Shown here piece by piece: positions 3,291-62,764 of a stretch of 64,000 bases of DNA. The notes beneath the pieces are model-generated. The model was not told the origin of the DNA. It did not search any database and worked only from the letters and a program-made list of their open reading frames with translations. Each line of letters opens with the position of its first letter. Within the stretch, counting starts at the first letter, position 1. Made by a program: the position numbers and the translations under genes. The stretch comes from Devosia sp. A8/3-2 (GTDB lineage: Bacteria; Pseudomonadota; Alphaproteobacteria; Rhizobiales; Devosiaceae): the NCBI GenBank assembly GCA_025452255.1, contig CP104974.1, positions 2,830,156 to 2,894,155 of the forward strand, given 5' to 3'.

Positions 3291-4796
3291 TCAATCGTCT
3301 TCGACGAACACTTCCTTGCGCTTGCGCCGGATCGAGGGCAGCACGGCGATGATCACCGCCAGCAGCGCCAGCCCCAGCAGCGTCGCCGAGATCGGCCGTT
3401 CGAGGAACACCATCGGATCGCCCCGCGAGATGATCATGGCGCGGCGCAGATGTTCTTCCAGCAACGGCCCCAGCACGAAGCCGAGCAGCAGCGGCGCCGG
3501 CTCGCAGCCGAAACGGATCAGCACATAGCCGACCACCCCGAAAAAGCCGATGGCGAACACATCGTAGATATTCTGGTTGATCGAGAAACATCCGATACAG
3601 GCGAACAGCACAATGGCGGGGAACAAGGCGCGGTAGGGGATGGAGAGCATCTTCACCCACAGCCCGATCAGCGGCAGGTTGAGCAGCACCAGCAGCACAT
3701 TGCCGATCCACATCGAGGCGATGATGCCCCAGAACAAAGCCGGCTGGTCGTTGATGACATTGGGGCCGGGCGTGATGCCCTGCAGGATAAACGCCCCCAC
3801 CATCAGCGCCATCACCGGATGCGCCGGAATGCCCAGCGTCATCAGCGGAATGAACGAGGTCTGCGCAGCCGCATTATTGGCCGATTCCGGCCCGGCAACG
3901 CCTTCGATGGCGCCATGCCCGAATTCCTCGGGCGTCTTGGACAGGCGCTTTTCGGCCGAGTAGGAGGCGAAGGAGGCCAGAATATGCCCGCCGCCCGGCA
4001 GGATGCCGAGCACCGATCCCAAGGCCGTGCCGCGTATGACCGGGGCGGCGATGCGCTTGAAATCGTCCTTGCTGAGCCACAGGTTCTTGACGGCCTTGAC
4101 CATCACGTCGCGGCCCTTCTCGTTTTCGAGATTGCGCAGGATTTCAGCGACGCCGAACACGCCCACGGCGAGCGAAACGAAATTGAGCCCCGAATAGAGT
4201 TCATGAATGCCCATCGTGAAGCGGGGCTGGCCGGTATAGATATCCTGCCCCACCATGCCCAGCAGCAGGCCCAGCACGATCATCGCCAGCGCCTTGAGAA
4301 TGGAGCCATGCGCCAGCGCGATGGAGACGAGCAGTCCCAAGACGATCAGGGCGAAATATTCCGGCGCCCTGAAATTGAGCGCTGCTCGCGCAAGGGGCGG
4401 TGCGAAGAAGGCCAGCAGCAGCGTGCCGACCGTGCCTGCAAAGAACGACCCCAGCGCCGCCGTCGCCAAAGCCGGACCAGCCCGGCCCTTCTTGGCCATC
4501 TGGTAGCCGTCGATCGCCGTGACGGCCGAGGAGCTTTCACCCGGCAGGTTGATCAGGATAGCGGTGGTCGAGCCGCCATATTGGGCGCCGTAATAAATGC
4601 CGGCGAGCATGATCAGCGCTGTCGCGGGCGACAGCGAAAAGGTGATGGGCAACAGCATGGCGATGGTCGCTGTCGGCCCGATGCCGGGCAAGACGCCGAC
4701 CAACGTGCCCAGCAGCACGCCGATGAAGCAGTAGAAGATGTTGATCGGGTCGAGGGCGACCGAAAAGCCCGAGCCAAGCGAAGCAATGATGTCCAT
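3291..4796 (-). CDS. tctA: Tripartite tricarboxylate transporter, large membrane subunit TctA
   Basis: About 501-residue integral membrane subunit with some 11-12 hydrophobic segments. Family signatures include GVLPGIGPTATIAMLLP, YGGSTTAILINLPGE and LGIPAHPVMALMVGA. It forms the transport channel with TctB, and TctC delivers the substrate. In the raw sequence it reads as a fusion with tctB, but the tctB stop TAG, a GGAG ribosome binding site and this ATG are all present in the neighbouring frame, so the fusion comes from one missing base near 4815. The start at 4796 follows GGAG by about 7 bases. Confidence 0.92.
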   Translation of the reverse strand: MDIIASLGSGFSVALDPINIFYCFIGVLLGTLVGVLPGIGPTATIAMLLPITFSLSPATALIMLAGIYYGAQYGGSTTAILINLPGESSSAVTAIDGYQMAKKGRAGPALATAALGSFFAGTVGTLLLAFFAPPLARAALNFRAPEYFALIVLGLLVSIALAHGSILKALAMIVLGLLLGMVGQDIYTGQPRFTMGIHELYSGLNFVSLAVGVFGVAEILRNLENEKGRDVMVKAVKNLWLSKDDFKRIAAPVIRGTALGSVLGILPGGGHILASFASYSAEKRLSKTPEEFGHGAIEGVAGPESANNAAAQTSFIPLMTLGIPAHPVMALMVGAFILQGITPGPNVINDQPALFWGIIASMWIGNVLLVLLNLPLIGLWVKMLSIPYRALFPAIVLFACIGCFSINQNIYDVFAIGFFGVVGYVLIRFGCEPAPLLLGFVLGPLLEEHLRRAMIISRGDPMVFLERPISATLLGLALLAVIIAVLPSIRRKRKEVFVEDD

Positions 4797-4806
4797 GATT
4801 GCGCTC

Positions 4807-5267
4807 CTACTGCCCGAGCCGGGGCCGAACATCGGCACGCTCATGCCGAGGCCGACGACGAAAATCAGCGTGCACATCACCGTCAGCGCCACGGCCAGGA
4901 TGATGGAGAACAGCGGTGAATTGAGCCGGCTGGCCATGGCCGCGGCGAACGAGCCGATCAGCACCACTGGCACGAAGCCCGAGCCGCGAATGGTCAGCCC
5001 GAAAAACACGATGACGCCGATGATCAGCGCCATGCCCCGCCAAGGCGGCGCGAGTGGCTTTTCCGCATCGGGCTTCTTCCAGCCGCTGGCGGCAATGCCG
5101 AGCCCCAGCGCCACCAGCACGCTGCCCAGCAGCAGCGGCATGAATCCGGGTCCCATGCGAAACGCCGTGCCGGTCTCGTAATTGAGCGCCTCGATCGCAA
5201 AATAGGCCCCCGCTGCGACAAAGATGCCGCCCGATACGAGGTCCTTGGTCGAAAAATTGGAAACCAC
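4807..5267 (-). CDS. tctB: Tripartite tricarboxylate transporter, small membrane subunit TctB, one frameshift at the 3' end
   Basis: Restored length about 153 residues with four hydrophobic segments, typical of TctB. GTG start at 5267 preceded by GGGAGG. The end should read MFGPGLGQ then TAG at 4809-4807. One missing C turns CCTCGG into CTCGG at about 4815, removes this stop and joins the frame to tctA. Lies 69 bases after tctC and 10 bases before tctA. Confidence 0.88.
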
Positions 5268-5336: not shown

Positions 5337-6316
5337 TTAGTCGGCGTAAACGCCCGCGGCTTCGATAACCGCGCGCCACAGCTCGATCTGGCTGGCCGTG
5401 GTCTGGGTCAGCGCGGCCGGGGTGGCTTCCTCGGCCGTCACCGGCAGAGTGCCCAGCTCGGCAAAGCGGCTCACCACGGTCTCATTGGTTAGCGCCTTCT
5501 GCAGCGAGGCTTCGAGCTTGGCGATGATGGCCGCGTCGGTGCCAGCTGGGGCATAGAGCCCGTGCCACACGCCGATCTCGATCTCGAGCCCACCTTCCTT
5601 GACCGTCGGCAGATCAGGCAGGTTCGGCAGGCGGGTCAGCGTGGTCACGCCATAGGCCTTGACCTCACCGGCCCGGATCTGGCTCGTCGTATTGGTGGTC
5701 TGGTCGCAGATCATGTCGATCTGGCCGCCGATAATATCGGTCATGGCCGGGCCGGCACCCTGATAGGGCACGGTGGTCATCTGCGTATCGAGCGCATCCA
5801 TCAGCAGCATGCCACAGAGCTGGCTGGCTGAACCGATGCCGGCATTGGCATAGGTGACGTTCTCGCCATTGGCTTTGATATAGGCGGCGAGCTCAGCAAG
5901 CGTGTTGGGCTCGAAGTCCTTGCGGGCCACCAGCGTCATCGGCACGGAGGTGATCAGCCCGATCGGGGCAAAGTCGGTGATCGGATCATAAGGCAGGCTG
6001 CGATAGAGGGTCGGCGCGGTGGACATGCCGATATGGTGCAGCAGCAGCGTGTAGCCGTCATTGGGGGCAACCGCCACCGGCCGGCGCCGAGGGTGCCACC
6101 GGCGCCGCCGACATTCTGGATCACCACTTGCTGGCCCAGATCATTGCTCATCACTTCGGCAACCAGCCGCGCCACGGTATCGGTCGGGCCGCCAGCCGAG
6201 AACGGCACCACGACGGTGATCGGCTTGGTGGGGTAATCCTGCGCCATGGCCGTGCCCGTCAGGCTCGCGCCTGTCAGCATCAAGCCGGCGGCAAGGGACA
6301 GCATTGTCTTGTTCAT
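5337..6316 (-). CDS. tctC: Tripartite tricarboxylate transporter substrate-binding protein (Bug/TctC family), one frameshift
   Basis: Periplasmic binding protein, about 326 residues when restored. It has a signal peptide (MNKTMLSLAAGLMLTGASL, cleaved near AMA-QDYP), the family opening YPTKPITVVVPFSAGG, then GGAGGTLGAG, DGYTLLLHHIG and SVPMTLVARKD. The ligand is probably a carboxylate but cannot be read from sequence. One base is missing near 6083 (CCGGGTGG read as CCGGTGG). Start ATG at 6316 with GGGAGG upstream. First gene of tctCBA, behind a sigma-54-type promoter. Confidence 0.92.
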
Positions 6317-6361
6317 TTTGGTTCCTCCCGAAAGATCAGCGCTCCTCGCGCAGCATTCCCT

Positions 6362-6379
6362 AAGCAGCTTCCGTGCCAA
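6362..6379 (-). promoter_or_regulatory. Sigma-54 promoter for tctCBA
   Basis: The minus strand reads TTGGCACGGAAGCTGCTT. Compared with the consensus TGGCACG-N4-TTGCW there is one mismatch, with exact -24/-12 spacing. The -12 element lies about 46 bases before the tctC ATG. The divergent gene pair encodes a sigma-54-type activator, which fits. Confidence 0.7.
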
Positions 6380-6453
6380 ATCACGCAAACCCTGCATTTC
6401 CAGCATATCACCAATGCAACAACGCAGCAGCAAGATGCATTTCCGGCAATTTC

Positions 6454-6481
6454 TTGCCAAGCCCGGATGGCGACTTGGCAA
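6454..6481. promoter_or_regulatory. Inverted repeat, candidate DctD-like enhancer site
   Basis: TTGCCAA (6454-6460) and TTGGCAA (6475-6481) form an inverted repeat with a 14-base spacer. It lies roughly 80-110 bases upstream of the sigma-54 promoter and 43 bases before dctB, a suitable place for an activator that controls tctCBA and possibly its own operon. Confidence 0.45.
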
Positions 6482-6524
6482 AAATCCGCCAATGGCATAG
6501 GACCACTTATGGAGGATTTGCATC

Positions 6525-8381
6525 ATGGCCGGCCGCACAATGCCTTTGTCGCCCTATCAGCGCCTGCTGATCGCGGTCGGCTGTGCCGTCGTGGTGCTGG
6601 CCTCGTGCCTCGTTGCCTATGAAATCGCGCTGCAAAGCGGCATTGCCGCCGCCCACGATACCAGCGAACGGCGGCTGCAGATTTTCGATCGCATGCTCGA
6701 AGCCAATATCGAGCGCTACCACTTTTTGCCGACGACGCTCGCCCGGGCCTCCGAAATCCACGACGTGCTGGCTCATCCCGAGGACGACGCTCTGCGCGAT
6801 CGCGCCAATGGCTTTCTGTCCAATATGGGCGGCACGGCCGCGGCCGAGGAGCTGTTCATTGTCGATGTCACCGGGCGCTCCATCGCCGCCAGCAATTGGT
6901 GGACGCACCAATCCATGGTGGGCCGCCACTATGCTGAACGCCCCTATTTCCAGGAGGCGATGTTCGACGGCGCGGCAAAATATTATGCCGTGGGCATCAC
7001 CACGGGCGTGCCGGGCTATTTCATCGCCAACCGCATTGACGGCCCTGATGGCCCGCTGGGCGTCGCCGTGGTCAAGATCAATCTGGGCGAGATCGAAGCC
7101 GTGTGGTGGCGCTCGGGCGAGCTGATCGGGATTTTCGACAGCAATGATGTGGGTATTCTCTCGACCCGCCCTGATTGGCGCTATCGCACGCTGGTCGATA
7201 CCCACCCCACCGGCCTCGAAGCCATGGCCCGCGACCAGCGCTATCTCGGCGTCGCCATCAACGGCAATGGCATCGTGCAATCGATCGAACCACCGGCGTG
7301 GCACCGAACTCGCCGTGCTGCGCAGCGGCGATAGCGAGATCAATGGCGAGTTCTCGGTCGATCGCCTGCGCATGCCGCTGCATGGCTGGCGCCTGCTGTC
7401 CTTCGTGCCCCTCGGTCCGATTTCCAACTGGGCTCGGACCGCCACTTTCTTTGTCGGCGTCGCCGTCAGCGCCATTCTGCTGGCCGCCATGCTGTTCATG
7501 CAGCGCCAGCGCCTGATCCGCGCCCGACTTGAGGATCACGACCAGCTCGAGCAACGCGTCTTGCTCCGCACCAGCGAATTGCAGGAAGCCAATAGCCGGC
7601 TCGCCGGCGAAATTGTCGAGCGCCGGGAGGCCGAGAAGGCCCGTCAGGCCGCCCAGCAAGGGCTGGTGCAAGCGGCAAAGCTGGCCACCCTCGGCCGGGC
7701 CCCGGCCGGTGTCGCCCACGAAGTCAGCCAGCCCATCGCCGCGCTGCGCACCCAGACTGCCAGCGCCAAGCTGCTGGCCCGGGGCAAGGTGCCCGAGCTT
7801 GCGGATCTGTTCGGCAGCATGGAGGGCGTGATCGGCCGGCTGGTGGCGCTTACGGGGCATCTCAAGACCTTCGCCCGCAAGGAAACCGAAATCTCGATCC
7901 AGAGCGATGTCGTCCACATCGCCCACAATGCCATCGAGCTGGCCCAACCATTTCCACGAGGACCCCAGCCTCACCATCACGCTCGACGCGCCCCCGCACG
8001 CCCTCATCGTCACCGGCAACCCGGTCCATATCGAGCAGGTGCTGGTCAACCTCATCTCCAATGCCGCCGACGCCATGGAGGGTCTGGAAGACGCCACCAT
8101 AAAGATCATCGCGCGCGATAGCGGCCAGCACGCGGTCATTACTGTCACCGACAATGGCACCGGTATCGATCCGGCCATTATCGACACACTGTTCGATCCC
8201 TTCGTCACTACCAAGGAACCCGGCCGCGGCTCTGGGCTTGGGTCTCTCCATCTCCTATGGCCTGATCCGCGAAATGGGTGGCCGTATCGAGGTCGAAAAC
8301 CGCCTTGGCGAAGGCGCCACCTTCACCATCACCCTGCCCCTCGCCGAAATCACCACGCCTCAAATCAGAGATTTCGCATGA
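6525..8381 (+). CDS. dctB: DctB-like membrane sensor histidine kinase, three frameshifts
   Basis: Restored length about 617 residues. One membrane segment lies at residues 13-35, then a periplasmic double-PAS (dCache) sensor ([42 protein letters not shown]), a second membrane segment ([18 protein letters not shown]), a coiled coil, the phospho-acceptor His in [13 protein letters not shown], the N box [10 protein letters not shown] and the G boxes DNGTGI and GLGLSISYG. Extra bases lie near 7286, 7950 and 8233. Its position next to tctCBA suggests it senses the carboxylate carried by that transporter. The stop overlaps dctD by ATGA. Confidence 0.85.
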
Positions 8382-9730
8382 CAAGCAAAACATCGGTGAT
8401 GATCGTCGAAGACGAGGGCATCGTCCGCAACGCGCTCGACCAATGGCTTAATCTGTCGGGCTTCGCCGTCACCACTGTGGGCAGCGCCCGCGAGGCCATG
8501 ACGCGCCTCGGCGATGCGCAGCCCGAAGTGGTCATATCCGACGTCCGCATGCCTTCCGTCTCCGGCCTCGACCTGCTCGCCCAGATCCGCGACAAGGACC
8601 CCACCACCTCGGTCATCCTGATTACCGCCCATGGCGACGTGCCCATGGCGGTCAAAGCGATCCACGACGGCGCCTATGATTTCCTGCAAAAGCCCTACGA
8701 GCCCGAACAGCTCGTCAGCGTCATCGAACGCGCCGCCGAACAAGCCCGCGTCCGCCGCGAATTGGTCAATCTGCGCCGCCGGCTCGATGGGGGCGCGGCC
8801 GAATTGTCCAATCGCCTCATCGGCTCCTCCCCTGTCATGGAGGATTTGCGCCAGCTCATTCTCGACGTCGCTGCTATCGACACCGACGTCATCATCCCGG
8901 GCGAAACCGGCACCGGCAAGGAAGTCGTCGCCCGCGCCCTGCACGATTTCTCCCCTGCTCCGCCGCCCCCTTCGTCGCCGTCAATTGCGCGGCTATCCCC
9001 GCCGAGTTGATCGAAAGCGAGCTGTTCGGCCACGAAGCCGGCGCCTTCACCGGCAGCGCCGGCCCGCGCATCGGCAAGTTCGAATTCGCCAATGGCGGCA
9101 CGCTATTGCTCGACGAAATCGAATCCATGCCCCTGCTCGCCCGAGCCAAGGTGCTGCGCGTCATTCAGGAGCGCACCGTTGAGCGCGTTGGCTCCAACCG
9201 CCAGATTCCGCTCGATCTGCGCATCATCGCCGCCACCAAGGTCGACCTGCTCGACGAAGCCGAAGCCGGCCGCTTCCGCGCCGATCTGCATTATCGCCTC
9301 AATACCGCCAGCGTCGCCGTGCCCCCGCTGCGCCAGCGCAGCGAAGACGCTCTGCTGCTGTTCCACTATTTCCTCGAACTGGCCCAAAAGCGCTTCAACC
9401 GCCCCTCCCAGCCGCTTCATCCGGCCGATATCGAGGCCCTGTCCTGCTACGCTCGGCCCGGCAATGTCCGCGAACTGAAAACCGTGGCCGACAAATTCTG
9501 CCCCGGGTCTCTCCAGCGCCAATTATTCCATTCAGAGCGCCATCGGCATCAAGCCCGGCACACCCGACGAGAACCTCAGCCTCGCCGACCGCCCGGCACA
9601 ATATGAACGCAGCATCATCGAAGCCGAACTTCGCAAGCACGACAATTCCATCGCCGACACCGCCGACGCCCTCAGCGTGCCGCGCCGCACGCTCAGTGAA
9701 AAGATGACGCGGCTAGGGGTGCGGCGCTAG
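8378..9730 (+). CDS. dctD: DctD-like sigma-54-dependent response regulator, two frameshifts
   Basis: About 450 residues. Receiver domain with the acidic pair in VEDEG, phospho-acceptor Asp in VVISDVRMP, and K in LQKPYEP. AAA+ domain with Walker A GETGTGKE, the sigma-54-contacting loop [15 protein letters not shown], Walker [12 protein letters not shown], and a Fis-type C-terminus ([19 protein letters not shown]). One base is missing near 8955 and one T is inserted at 9499. The GAFTGA loop reads GAFTGS here. It should activate the sigma-54 promoter found in front of tctC. Confidence 0.88.
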
Positions 9731-9938
9731 GATAGTGAAGCGGTTTACGTCCATGAGCGGCGCGCTTGGAATAGCTTTCCCGAAATGCTGTCTTCATCCG
9801 AAAGGCATTTCGATCCAAATGCGTAGCAAAGCATGGATAGACTACTGATTTCGTAGAGTTTTCTGGCATCAAGCGATATGTCTTTCATCAGATGGCGCTG
9901 TCCCGCGGGCAGGCCGACACATAAGGAGCTTTCCAGCC
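9731..9938. other. Intergenic region before the peptide ABC operon
   Basis: 208 bases with no gene. It contains an imperfect inverted repeat (GAAATGC near 9781, GGCATTTC near 9804) and AAGGAG about 7 bases before the next start. No confident promoter was recognised. Confidence 0.4.
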
Positions 9939-11433
9939 ATGTCCCTCATTTCGCGCCGCAATCTGCTGGTCGCTACCCTGCTCGCCAGCATCGCCCTTGC
10001 CCCGACCGCCTTCGCCCGAGATTTCGATGCCAATGCGACCATCCGCATCGGCTCGCTCTATGAGCCGCAGAATCTGGACAACACGGCGGGCGCCGGCCGT
10101 GGCATCAACGAAGCCTTCAACGGCAATGTCTACGAAGCCCTGTTCCAGCTGACCGATGCCGGCAGTGTCGAACCCGCGCTTGCCGCCGACTACACCGTCA
10201 GCGACGATGGCTTGACCTATACCTTCACCCTCAAGGACGGCGTCACTTTCCATTCGGGCGACCCGCTGACCGCTGCCGACGTAAAATATTCCATCGAGCG
10301 CGTCACCGCCGAAACCTCCAAGAGCTCGCGCAAGAAGAGCCTCTCGACCATCACCGCGATCGAGACGCCCGACGACAAGACCGTGGTCATTACCCTGTCG
10401 GCTCGCTCTGATCTCGCTGCCCTACAATCTGAGCTATGTCTGGATCGTCAACGACGCGGCAACCGACATCACCGCCACCGAAGACGGCACCGGCCCCTAT
10501 ACGCTGGAAGAATGGCGCCGCGGTTCGGCCCTCGCTTTGGCCCGCTTCGACGGCTATTGGGGCACTGCCCCCAGCAATGGCGAAGTGATCTACACCTATT
10601 TCACCGACGCCACCGCGCTCAACAATGCGCTGCTGACCAACGCTGTCGACGTCATTACCTCAGTGCAGAGCCCGGATTCGCTGGCCCAATTCGCGGGCAA
10701 TCCATCCTTCACAGTCACCGAAGGCGCCTCCACCACCAAGGAATTGCTGGCCTATAACGACCGCGTCGCCCCCTTCGACAATGTCCAGTGTGCAAGGCCC
10801 CGGCCCGTGCCGTGGACAAGGCCAAACTGCTCAACTCCATCTGGGGTGATTACGGCACGCTGATCGGCTCCTTCGTGCCCCCAACCGATCCACCGGTATG
10901 TCGATCTCACGGGCGTCGATGCCTATGACCCCGACAGCGCCAAGGCCCTGCTGGCCGAGGCCGGCTATCCCGATGGCTTCGCCTTCACTCTCGACACCCC
11001 CGATTACGATCCACACCCCTCGGTCGCCCAGTTCCTGCAGACCGAACTGGCCAAGGTCGGCGTCACAGTGAACATCAACATCATCACCGCCAATGAGTGG
11101 TACACAAAGATCTACCAGGAGCACAATTTCGAGGCGACGCTGCAGGAGCACGTCAACCACCGCGACATCGTCTTCTACGGCAATCCCGACTTCTACTGGG
11201 GCTATAACAATCCCGAAGTGGTCAAGCTGATCGCTGATTCCGAGGCTGCCAGCTCCATCGACGAGCAGACGGAAAAGCTCACTGAAGCCAACAAGCTGAT
11301 CGCCGAAGACGCCGCCAGCAACTGGCTGTATCTCTATCCGCAGATCGTGGTTTCCGCGGCCAACGTCACCGGCTATCCGGTCAATGGGCTGAACTCGCAG
11401 TTCTTTGCCTATGGGATCAAGAAGGCGAACTAG
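9939..11433 (+). CDS. ABC transporter substrate-binding protein, family 5 (peptide/opine/nickel type), three frameshifts
   Basis: Periplasmic protein of about 497 residues. Signal peptide MSLISRRNLLVATLLASIA with an RR pair. Family 5 landmarks are EPALAADYTVSDDGLTYTFTL, FHSGDPLTAADVKYSIERV, GTGPYTLEEW, and late AGYPDGFAFTL. Indels occur near 10410, 10797 (CAGGTG read as CAGTG) and 10892 (extra C). Its permeases and ATPases follow in the same direction after a repeat-filled gap. A di- or oligopeptide or similar substrate is likely, but specificity cannot be told. Confidence 0.85.
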
Positions 11434-11466
11434 GCGGCAGACAAGCCCGGATCCGTCAGCCATCGC

Positions 11467-11490
11467 CTCCCTCCCCCTTGTGGGGAGGGG
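11467..11490. repeat. Short C-rich/G-rich palindrome
   Basis: CTCCCTCCCCC and GGGGAGGGG flank TTGTG. It resembles dispersed intergenic palindromes of alphaproteobacteria and could act as a weak terminator after the binding-protein gene. Confidence 0.5.
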
Positions 11491-11562
11491 ACAACGAGAG
11501 CCCTGATCTGGAAGCGACACAGGACACTCACTGTCTCGCTGACAATCACCAATACGCAAAAA

Positions 11563-11657
11563 CCACCGCGTCTCCCTCGGGCTTGACCCGAGGGCCACCC
11601 GCAACTCGGCACAAGCGGCGAAAGACCCTCGGGTCGAGTCCGAGGGAGATGCGGTGG
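11563..11657. repeat. 95-bp imperfect palindromic intergenic repeat
   Basis: Two arms of about 31 bases (11563-11594 and 11627-11657) are near-perfect reverse complements. Each carries the segment CCCTCGGGT/ACCCGAGGG, and they are separated by about 32 bases. Together with the shorter palindrome at 11467-11490 it fills the 307-base gap between the binding-protein and permease genes. Probably a mobile-derived palindromic repeat. Confidence 0.75.
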
Positions 11658-11740
11658 GTGACGATGCTTCAGGGTATTCGGCCAGTGGCCCACCTCCCCC
11701 AAAACCGCTACCCTGCCGCAACTGACTCGGAGGCCTCCCC

Positions 11741-12704
11741 ATTCTCGCTTACACCCTGCGCCGCTCGGTCATTCTCATTGCGTCCCTGCTGATCGCGGCC
11801 GTCGTGCTGTTCGTGCTGCTGCGCCTGTTGCCGGGCGATCCGGCCAATGCGCTGCTCGGCGTCGGCGCCACCGAGGCCCAGATCGCCGCCGCCCGCAGCC
11901 GAGTCGGCTCCGATCAGCCGCTTTACACCCACTTCGCCGCCTTCATCGGCAATCTCGCCCGCTTTGACTCGGGCACTTCCTTCGTCAGCCGCGCCTCCGT
12001 CATCAGCGAAATCGGCAACCGCATGTCGGTCACCCTGCCGCTGACCTTTCTCGGCTTCCTGCTGGCCCTCGCCCTCGCCATCCCCCTCGGAATCATCGCC
12101 GCCGTCCGCTCCGATCGCTGGTATGGCGGCCTGATTTCCGTGGTATCGCAACTGGGCATCGCCATCCCCGTCTTCTGGGTCGGTATCCTCCTCGGTTACG
12201 CTTTTCGCCATCAATCTGCGCCTATTGCCCTCGGGCGGCTTCCCCCTGCGCGGCTGGACCAATTTCGACGAAGCTGCCACCGCCATGATCCTACCCGTCC
12301 TCACCATCGCCCTCGTCATGGCCGCCTCGGTCCTACGCTATGTCCGCGCCGCCACTCTCGACGTGCTCGGCAGCGATTATCTGCGCACCGCCCGCGCCCT
12401 CGGCTCGTCTTTCCCACAAGCCCTGATCCGCCACGGCCTGCGCAACGGCGCCGTCCCGGTCATCTCCATTCTGGGCATTGAACTGGCCAGCACTTTCCTC
12501 GGCGCCGTCGTCATCGAGCGCGTCTTCAGCCTCCCGTGCCCGGGCTCCATGCTCCTCCTTGCCATCCAGCAACGCGATTATCCCAACGTGCAGGGCGTCC
12601 TCTTCATCTCCACCCTCCTCGTCCTGCTGATCGGCTTCGCCGCCGACCTGCTGCAGCGCTTCATCGACCCGCGCCTGCGCGACCGTGGAGCTGGCACGCC
12701 ATGA
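11741..12704 (+). CDS. ABC transporter permease, DppB/OppB type, one frameshift, start codon damaged or non-canonical
   Basis: About 320 residues with six hydrophobic segments. The N-terminus LAYTLRRSVILIASLL and RLLPGDPA are typical of DppB. The EAA-like loop is DYLRTARALGSSFPQALIRHGLRN. The codon before LAYTL is ATT and no in-frame ATG, GTG or TTG lies between it and the upstream stop, so either ATG was misread or ATT is used. One extra T near 12210 separates the two halves. Its stop overlaps the next gene (ATGA). Confidence 0.85.
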
Positions 12705-13546
12705 CCACGCTCGAGATCACACCCAAGCGCCGCAGCTATGGCTCCCTCACCCTCTGGGCGGGCCCGGCGCTCGTGGGCCTTCACATCGCCATCGGTCTGC
12801 TCACCCTCGTCTGGACGCCGTATGATCCCACAGGCATGAGCGGCGGGCGCCTCGAAGCCCCATCATGGCTGCATTGGGCCGGCACCGACCGGCTCGGTCG
12901 CGATTTCCTCACCCAGATCATGATCGGCTCGCGCATCGCCCTCATCGTGGGCACCGGCGCCGTCGTTATCGGCGCGGCTCTCGGCGTCACGCTGGGCATT
13001 CTCGCCGCCTTCGCCAGCAAACTGCTCGACGACGCCCTCGCCGCCACCCTAGACATCCTCATCGCCTTCCCGACCCTGCTCATCGCCATGCTGGTGGTCG
13101 CGGCCAGCGATACGGCGAACCCGGCCTCCGCCATCATCGCCATCGGCATTGCCCTCTCGGCCATCGTCGCCCGCCTCACCCGCATTCTCGCCAAGCGCGT
13201 CCTGCTGATGGATTACATCACCGCCGCCCGCACCTCCGGCTCGTCCCGGCCCGCCATCGTCTTCGGCCATATCCTGCCCAATATCTGGCCCACCCTGTCG
13301 GTCAATTTCGCCCTGCAATTCGGCCTCGCCGTCATCGTGGAAGCCTCGCTCTCCTATCTCGGCCTCGGCGCCCCGCCGCCCAATGCCTCCCGGGGCCGCC
13401 TGTTGCAGGAAGCCCGGGGCACGGTCTACACCGCCCCCATCGGCGCTATCGCCCCCGGCATTGCGCTCGTCTCGCTGGTGATCGGCATCAACCTCCTCGC
13501 CGATGGCCTGCGCGACAGCATCGATCCCACAAGGCGCGCCCGATGA
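12701..13546 (+). CDS. ABC transporter permease, DppC/OppC type
   Basis: 281 residues, intact. Second inner-membrane subunit of the peptide-type importer. Hydrophobic segments start at residue 18, with the DppC landmark HWAGTDRLGRDFLTQIMIGSR near 62 and the ATPase-contact loop DYITAARTSGSSRPAIVFGHILPN. It starts with the ATGA overlap to the upstream permease and ends with an ATGA overlap to the ATPase gene, so the subunits are translationally coupled. Confidence 0.92.
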   Translation: MTTLEITPKRRSYGSLTLWAGPALVGLHIAIGLLTLVWTPYDPTGMSGGRLEAPSWLHWAGTDRLGRDFLTQIMIGSRIALIVGTGAVVIGAALGVTLGILAAFASKLLDDALAATLDILIAFPTLLIAMLVVAASDTANPASAIIAIGIALSAIVARLTRILAKRVLLMDYITAARTSGSSRPAIVFGHILPNIWPTLSVNFALQFGLAVIVEASLSYLGLGAPPPNASRGRLLQEARGTVYTAPIGAIAPGIALVSLVIGINLLADGLRDSIDPTRRAR

Positions 13547-62044: not shown

Positions 62045-62764
62045 CTAGTTCGACGCGCTGACCAAGGTGCTGCGGGTCTTGCCGGCAAGCACGCCGGACA
62101 ACCCGCCCGGATCGTCGAGCGCATATACGATTATCGGCATGGAATTGTCGCGGGCAAGCGCGAATGCCGCAGTATCCATGACCTTGAGGTTTTTTCCGAT
62201 GACTTCGTCATAGCTGACCGTGTCATAGCGGCGCGCATTGGGGTTCTTCATCGGGTCTTCGGTATAGACCCCGTCGACCTTGGTGCCCTTGAGCACGACA
62301 TCGCATTCAAGCTCGATGGCGCGCAGCGTGGAGGCCGTGTCGGTCGTAAAGAATGGATTGCCGATACCGCCGCCCAGCACCACCACAAAACCGTCTTCCA
62401 GCGCCGATTTGGCGGCGCGAGCGGTAAAGGTGTCGGCCACATTGGGCATGGTGACGGCGCTAAAAGCCTTGGACTTGATGCCCTGACGGGAGATCGCGTT
62501 ACTGAGCGCCAGCGCATTGATCATGGTGCCGAGCATGCCCATCAGGTCCGCGGTGACGCGATCGGTGCCGTCGGCAGCGCCCGCCATGCCGCGAAAGATA
62601 TTGCCGCCGCCCACCACGATGCCGATCTGCACGCCCGTATTGGCGACATCGGCGATCTGCTTGGCGATGGCTTGCAAAAAGGGTGGCTCTATACCGAAGG
62701 AATTGTCCCCCGCCAGCGCTTCGCCCGAGACCTTGAGCAGAATGCGTTTATAGGCAGGCGCCAT
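62045..62764 (-). CDS. pyrH: UMP kinase
   Basis: 239 residues, intact. Phosphorylates UMP to UDP and is the first committed nucleotide kinase of pyrimidine salvage and synthesis. [57 protein letters not shown], and [14 protein letters not shown] are the amino-acid-kinase signatures. 199 bases separate it from tsf. Confidence 0.97.

Follow-up and report, generated by a model that had tools for sequence, protein, structure and literature searches.

The tctCBA operon in the window (the whole 64-kb stretch of DNA that was analysed) is very probably controlled by a real sigma-54 enhancer switch, since the parts of this switch are conserved across related species. We also place high confidence in the mechanism as a whole, in which a DctBD-like pair would drive tctCBA via two palindromes and a sigma-54 promoter. 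Seen directly in the sequence were the genes of the locus, an rpoN gene, the promoter element and the two palindromes, and also the conservation of these parts and their narrow range of spacings. The features of the locus are:

3291-5267, minus strand: tctB (PF07331) and tctA (PF01970) in one fused open reading frame; separate frames in the related locus L004
5337-6316, minus strand: tctC, substrate-binding protein (PF03401); frame broken near 6079
6364-6379, minus strand: sigma-54 -24/-12 element TTGGCACG-GAAG-CTGC, one mismatch to the consensus, kept in 49/49 readable orthologous loci
6403-6417: dyad GCAT-N7-ATGC, which may correspond to the TGCATATCTGCCTTGC block of other species of the genus (judged by eye)
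6443-6460: putative proximal enhancer palindrome, minus-strand sequence TTGGCAAGAAATTGCCGG; its centre precedes the -24 box by ∼73 bp
6454-6481: repeat TTGCCAA-N14-TTGGCAA, the facing halves of the two palindromes and no independent site
6475-6492: putative distal enhancer palindrome, minus-strand sequence TTGGCGGATTTTTGCCAA; its centre is another 32 bp upstream, and one of its half-sites is degenerate
6525-8381, plus strand: DctB-like sensor kinase gene; approximate end estimated from relatives; frame breaks near 7292, 7943 and 8232
8378-9735, plus strand: DctD-like regulator gene, sigma-54 AAA+ domain with the loop GAFTGS; approximate limits estimated from relatives; frame breaks near 8952 and 9499

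According to Pfam, TctA, TctB and TctC are all encoded and the components of a TTT importer are thus complete. The plus side gave matches to HATPase_c, a receiver domain and a sigma-54 activator domain, and a weak one to dCache. The loop GAFTGS is present in the regulator of the window and also in those of two relatives (L003 and L004), and the intact regulator of L003 combines the receiver and the sigma-54 activator domain with a Fis-type HTH. The divergent kinase and the activator with a sigma-54-contacting loop, both named in a preliminary description of this DNA, were therefore found as described. Variants of the loop occur in other regulators: GAFTGA in L185 and GAFTGT in L188. Among the best 25 NCBIfam models listed for each, none was above the cut-off for the kinase or the regulator, and NCBIfam gave no model for the three Tct proteins. 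The N-terminus of the kinase is 94% identical to that of Devosia sp. LC5 and 96% identical to that of the Rhizobiales isolate AFS059704.

The genome assembly (4.55 Mb, 2 contigs, 84% complete) is rich in single-base indels, and tctC, dctB and dctD are each split over several frames. The indels are absent from L003 and L004. As these two loci carry the genes intact or in separate frames, we take the frame breaks to be probable sequencing errors. Other genes lie close to the locus. A CobW/ZigA-like metallochaperone GTPase is encoded near the tct operon at 1077-1832 (NF038288, E 2e-123, below the cut-off; the open reading frame covers part of the model). Downstream of the regulator, at 9939-13546, there are frame-split genes of a peptide-type ABC transporter (SBP_bac_5 by Pfam, permeases by eye), and similar ABC transporter genes occupy the equivalent position in L004.

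The promoter element was expected to be one mismatch away from the sigma-54 consensus with correct spacing, and this is what we found: the core TGGCACG-GAAG-CTGC at 6364-6378 on the minus strand differs at one position from TGGCACG-N4-TTGC. The GG and GC dinucleotides by which a sigma-54 promoter is recognised are present at -24/-12 with the fixed spacing. The longer sequence TTGGCACGGAAGCTGCTT occurs once in the genome, at C1:2836517-2836534 on the minus strand, which corresponds to 6362-6379 of the window. The element does lie upstream of tctC as described; the distance had been given as 46 bases, and with the ATG of tctC at 6316 we counted 45. An element with one mismatch is expected 0.58 times per 64 kb, and 46 of 100 shuffled versions of the window contained one, so that the single match is weak evidence by itself. 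Across the genome there are 46 matches with at most one mismatch compared to 13 for the reversed pattern, a rate that by arithmetic amounts to ∼0.002 matches per 208-bp gap. The genome contains an rpoN gene (Sigma54_DBD, E 1.7e-65). Its open frame seems to be split into two overlapping frames (L002, 438-2010), probably by a sequencing error. A perfect TTGGCACG-N4-TTGC is located ∼100 bp before the apparent rpoN start (G000:C1:550664-550679, position 393 of L002), and this suggests that rpoN may be transcribed from its own sigma-54 promoter.

The decisive evidence for the sigma-54 promoter and the paired palindromes is their conservation as read from aligned loci. We searched the 136 genomes of the family and found a relative of the kinase N-terminus in 89 of them. 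The upper group of matches consists of 50 places with at least 52% identity, all in genus g1 (75 genomes), and all 50 were fetched. L053 was left out as it ends at a contig edge, and L003 and L004 were not counted as they are duplicates of L007 and L008; 49 readable loci remain. In all 49 a divergent TctC is encoded beside the kinase gene, with only the first part of TctC present on the contig of L034. Each locus was anchored at its best-matching element no more than 220 bases from tctC. The match to the consensus core was perfect in 28 loci, had one mismatch in 18 and two mismatches in 3. Thus 46 of the 49 loci have an element with at most one mismatch against a shuffle mean of 0.40, and all 49 have one with at most two mismatches against 2.03; as the loci are related, these counts do not represent independent events. 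The conservation of the -24/-12 element in related genomes had been proposed as a check, and the element was present on the tctC strand in each of the 49 genus loci. The -12 box reads CTGC in all 5 loci of the clade to which the window belongs (four with TGGCACG, one with TGGCATG) and TTGC in the other 44. The background columns of the anchored alignment are scarcely conserved.

Upstream of the promoter there are two tandem 18-bp palindromes of the form TTGGCAA-N4-TTGCCAA, whose centres are 32 bp or about three DNA turns apart. Across the genus at least one exact copy of GGCAA-N4-TTGCC was found in 48/49 loci and two exact copies in 18/49, and all 49 contain at least two palindromes within two mismatches. 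In shuffles the average per locus was 0.001 for exact palindromes and 0.17 for those within two mismatches. For the 44 loci outside the own clade we located the sites (at most three mismatches) 66-67 bp (42 loci) and 99-101 bp (all 44) upstream of the TGG, with a site spacing of 32-33 bp in most of them, again about three helical turns. In the 5 own-clade loci the sites are 80-81 and 112-113 bp upstream of the TGG and 32 apart, and all five have a degenerate half-site in the distal palindrome. As the shift of ∼13 bp is slightly more than one turn and not a whole number of turns, the sites of this clade are not in strict phase with the promoter. Elsewhere in the window we found a third palindrome match, with two mismatches, at 62661. 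The exact palindrome occurs at 12 places in the genome; when the list of these places was compared with that of the 46 sigma-54 elements, the tct locus was the only one at which the two are at most 500 bp apart.

The gap between tctC and dctB contains further conserved sequence. Besides palindromes and promoter, the anchored alignment of the 44 loci that are not of the own clade displays two conserved blocks, at about -48 and -26. A strongly conserved TGCATATCTGCCTTGC block, specific to this locus, lies between enhancer and promoter in these loci at about -26 to -10 from the TGG. The TGCATATC block was encountered in 24 of the 75 genus genomes at one place each: 23 of these places are at the tct locus and one is in apparent coding sequence. 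With 23/24 occurrences confined to the tct locus we rejected this block as the site of a general regulator. We also compared it by eye with IHF, NtrC and sigma-70 sites, and none of these readings fits well.

As controls we fetched 20 of the 70 lower family matches (27-45% identity) in stretches of ∼5 kb. TctC was encoded in 0/20 of these stretches around DctB-like genes, and 0/20 have an exact palindrome among the 450 bp that precede the kinase gene; weak two-mismatch elements occur there in 4/20. For the 20 paralogous kinases the surrounding genes were listed as open frames, with annotation at G119. Here the palindrome GGCAAGAAATTGCC and a sigma-54 element lie after dctBD-like genes and before TAXI-TRAP genes (L182, 3817-3950), and the palindrome motif is therefore not exclusive to tct. 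In L177, L234, L235, L237 and L238 the kinase gene is opposite a dctA symporter gene or a look-alike, with a sigma-54 element; the symporters of L177 and L237 were confirmed by the Pfam domain SDF. By eye we detected tandem palindromes of the GTGCGGA type in L177 and less exact ones in L237. Among the 136 genomes of the family, 32 contain the paired-palindrome pattern, in most cases at the tct locus. We opened five such places away from tct: a sigma-54 element is close by in L180, L181 and L182, and none is close by in the other two (L183 and L184). In genome G023 the paired palindromes and the element precede a secreted M28-type peptidase (L180, 2777-2880) and, in the same arrangement, a large protein that seems to be secreted and matches no Pfam family (L181, 2870-3031).

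The kinase is more widespread than its association with TctC. At the level of the order, own genus included, 176 of 397 genomes contain a relative, and among 25 loci examined with 1.5-kb flanks TctC was encoded in six: four of the genus, L159 and L161. L159 (family f10) has a TctC with 73.5% and a kinase with 50% identity as well as the element TGGCACAACGGCTGC, and the palindrome is absent from the gap. In L161 (family f42; TctC 41%) the genes tctC-dctB-dctD are on one strand and the element TGGCATGTTTCCTGC is located before tctC. L185, from another family, has TctC, the kinase and a -24/-12 element, and the palindrome is absent from the gap between tctC and the kinase gene. In the class, own genome included, 41 of 385 genomes contain a kinase relative, with TctC in 0/29 of the loci opened (1.5-kb flanks). 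Among plasmids 292 records contain a relative. We opened eight of these loci: seven adjoin TAXI-TRAP genes and one adjoins a dicarboxylate/amino acid symporter. The latter has a TctC-type gene ∼1.6 kb beyond the kinase gene, and its adjacent response regulator is not annotated as sigma-54 dependent.

The sensor domain of L004 matches the S. meliloti DctB structures 2zbb and 3e4o (E 1e-32). We computed a tree of 89 sensor domains, with 24 of the 50 genus rows, by a quick method with SH-aLRT support only and a midpoint root. The TctC-linked genus kinases and L159 form a clade of their own (25 rows, SH-aLRT 99), and S. meliloti DctB and the G119 kinase are placed elsewhere. A clade of 24 (support 97) comprising the seven plasmid TAXI-TRAP-linked kinases and 16/20 paralogues belongs to the same larger branch as the TctC-linked clade. 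The L161 kinase could join the TctC-linked clade in one origin, with a support of only 63. Several rows have long branches, hence the deep placements are unsure. The gene next to the kinase gene is tctC, and not dctA, in 49/49 loci. On this sequence comparison the pair is DctBD-like and no orthologue of S. meliloti DctBD: the DctB/DctD-type label given at the outset holds in the sense of likeness, and the orthology does not. The wider claim of a sigma-54 promoter for tctCBA with an upstream enhancer facing such a pair was upheld at 49/49 genus loci, with the single-site form of the enhancer given up together with the orthology.

For the TctC of L004 the nearest solved relative is BugD (E 1.7e-98), and the second is 6hke, which we take to be MatC of R. 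palustris. BugD and MatC bind the C4 ligands aspartate and malate, as stated in excerpts of PMC8556258. The nearness to these two proteins makes a C4 acid likelier as cargo than citrate. The cargo is thus probably a C4 acid, and 'tricarboxylate' would probably be a family name only in this case. With a C4-acid cargo a DctB-like sensor is also less odd than the preliminary description held, and DctBD-like pairs can serve acids other than C4, as the available part of PMC4482717 indicates for MifS/MifR.

Several other explanations have to be weighed against this reading. That the resemblance arose by chance and has no function might be argued from the one-mismatch matches in 46/100 shuffles of the 64-kb window; we rejected this, because the element is conserved in 49/49 loci against an otherwise scarcely conserved background, and we regard the probability of a chance match as negligible. 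The enhancer could also consist of one site, TTGCCAA-N14-TTGGCAA, bound as a unit. This inverted repeat had been reported upstream of the promoter, and it does exist exactly at 6454-6481, with 7-bp arms and not a single occurrence in 100 shuffles. However, the N14 register is misleading, since it joins the inner halves of two separately conserved palindromes. The column profile of the 44 other loci shows conservation of all four half-sites, and each GGCAA-N4-TTGCC stands alone, 32-33 bp from the next in most of them; one N14 site would not account for the outer half-site on either flank. A single bound unit is thus highly improbable, and we rejected the repeat as an enhancer in favour of two palindromes.

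The promoter might be RpoN-dependent with the palindromes bound by another enhancer-binding protein, in which case the divergent pair would control other genes. The palindrome GGCAAGAAATTGCC also stands at the TAXI-TRAP-linked DctBD-like system of another genus (G119), so that such regulators may have sites in common. Yet all 49 loci combine the sites with both the kinase and the TctC gene, and the sites are missing before 20/20 other DctB-like genes opened, which makes a different binder fairly improbable. Lastly, a second promoter of the sigma-70 type, formed by TTAACA-like and TGCATATC blocks, could overlap at tctC, and the sigma-54 element would then be one of two inputs. In line with such a promoter are the two extra blocks that the 44 other loci keep (about -48 and -26 relative to the TGG) and the restriction of the TGCATATC block to the tct locus. 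The -10 box, however, is a poor match by eye, and the blocks are rearranged in the own clade and could serve dctBD or another regulator. We consider the second promoter possible, albeit unlikely.

Under the favoured mechanism, tctCBA would be read from the sigma-54 promoter with a predicted start near 6352 of the window. The DctB-like kinase would sense a periplasmic carboxylate, probably a C4 acid or an aspartate-like compound, and phosphorylate the DctD-like regulator. The regulator would bind the palindromes at 6443-6460 and 6475-6492 and then oligomerise. By looping of the DNA its GAFTGS loop would contact the RpoN-polymerase at 6364-6379 and the promoter would open, so that the importer would be made when its substrate is present. 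We infer the divergent regulator as binder, the C4-acid signal and the need for RpoN.

The closest model is the control of dctA by DctB/DctD and sigma-54 in Sinorhizobium/Rhizobium. Both systems have a divergent layout, a DctB-related periplasmic sensor kinase, a receiver-AAA+-Fis-HTH regulator, a -24/-12 promoter and, upstream of it, palindromic sites arranged in tandem (as in L177 and L237). In Devosia, however, the target is a TTT importer instead of the DctA symporter, the half-site is TTGGCAA instead of GTGCGGA and the TctC-linked kinases form a separate clade. TctD, BctDE and CitAB are regulators of the OmpR or CitB type. They resemble the present case in that a dedicated regulator or two-component system controls a TTT operon, whereas the Devosia regulator is an NtrC-type sigma-54 activator. 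The available part of the TTT review PMC5812351 describes the regulation of TTT operons by these systems, several of them encoded beside the operon; the word sigma is absent from its text. MifS/MifR of Pseudomonas aeruginosa is likewise a DctBD-like pair that, with RpoN, is linked to a transporter gene with a -24/-12 promoter, but PMC4482717 describes its transporter PA5530 as one for a dicarboxylate (alpha-ketoglutarate) and not as TTT. The TAXI-TRAP-linked DctBD-like pairs are alike in that seven plasmid kinases fall in a clade near the TctC-linked one and G119 shares the palindrome and the sigma-54 element; they differ in an importer of another family and a same-strand gene order, and the G119 kinase stands elsewhere in the tree. 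Among the matches listed for the open-licence literature, as far as their accessible text goes, there is no description of sigma-54 or DctBD control of tctCBA. Judged from the locus and its relatives, the type of switch is thus very probably a known one, and new would be its wiring to a TTT importer with a different enhancer half-site.

A joint reading, speculative and rather doubtful in our view, would have a distinct DctBD-like subfamily serve a TTT importer for C4 acids or aspartate. The locus-specific TGCATATCTGCCTTGC would give a second input, or the binding protein would act as co-sensor (as proposed for BctC), integrated at the sigma-54 promoter. The regulon would reach secreted peptidases in some species, as at the two G023 sites, and form a programme for scavenging acidic amino acids.

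TTT importers are numerous in Proteobacteria and, to our knowledge, few of them have known regulators. With the switch described here, sigma-54 enhancer control would join the types of regulators described for these importers, and the genus would gain a binding motif and a regulon that can be tested. The comparison also illustrates how one sensor-regulator module has come to serve importers of the DctA, TAXI-TRAP and TTT kinds, with altered enhancer half-sites.
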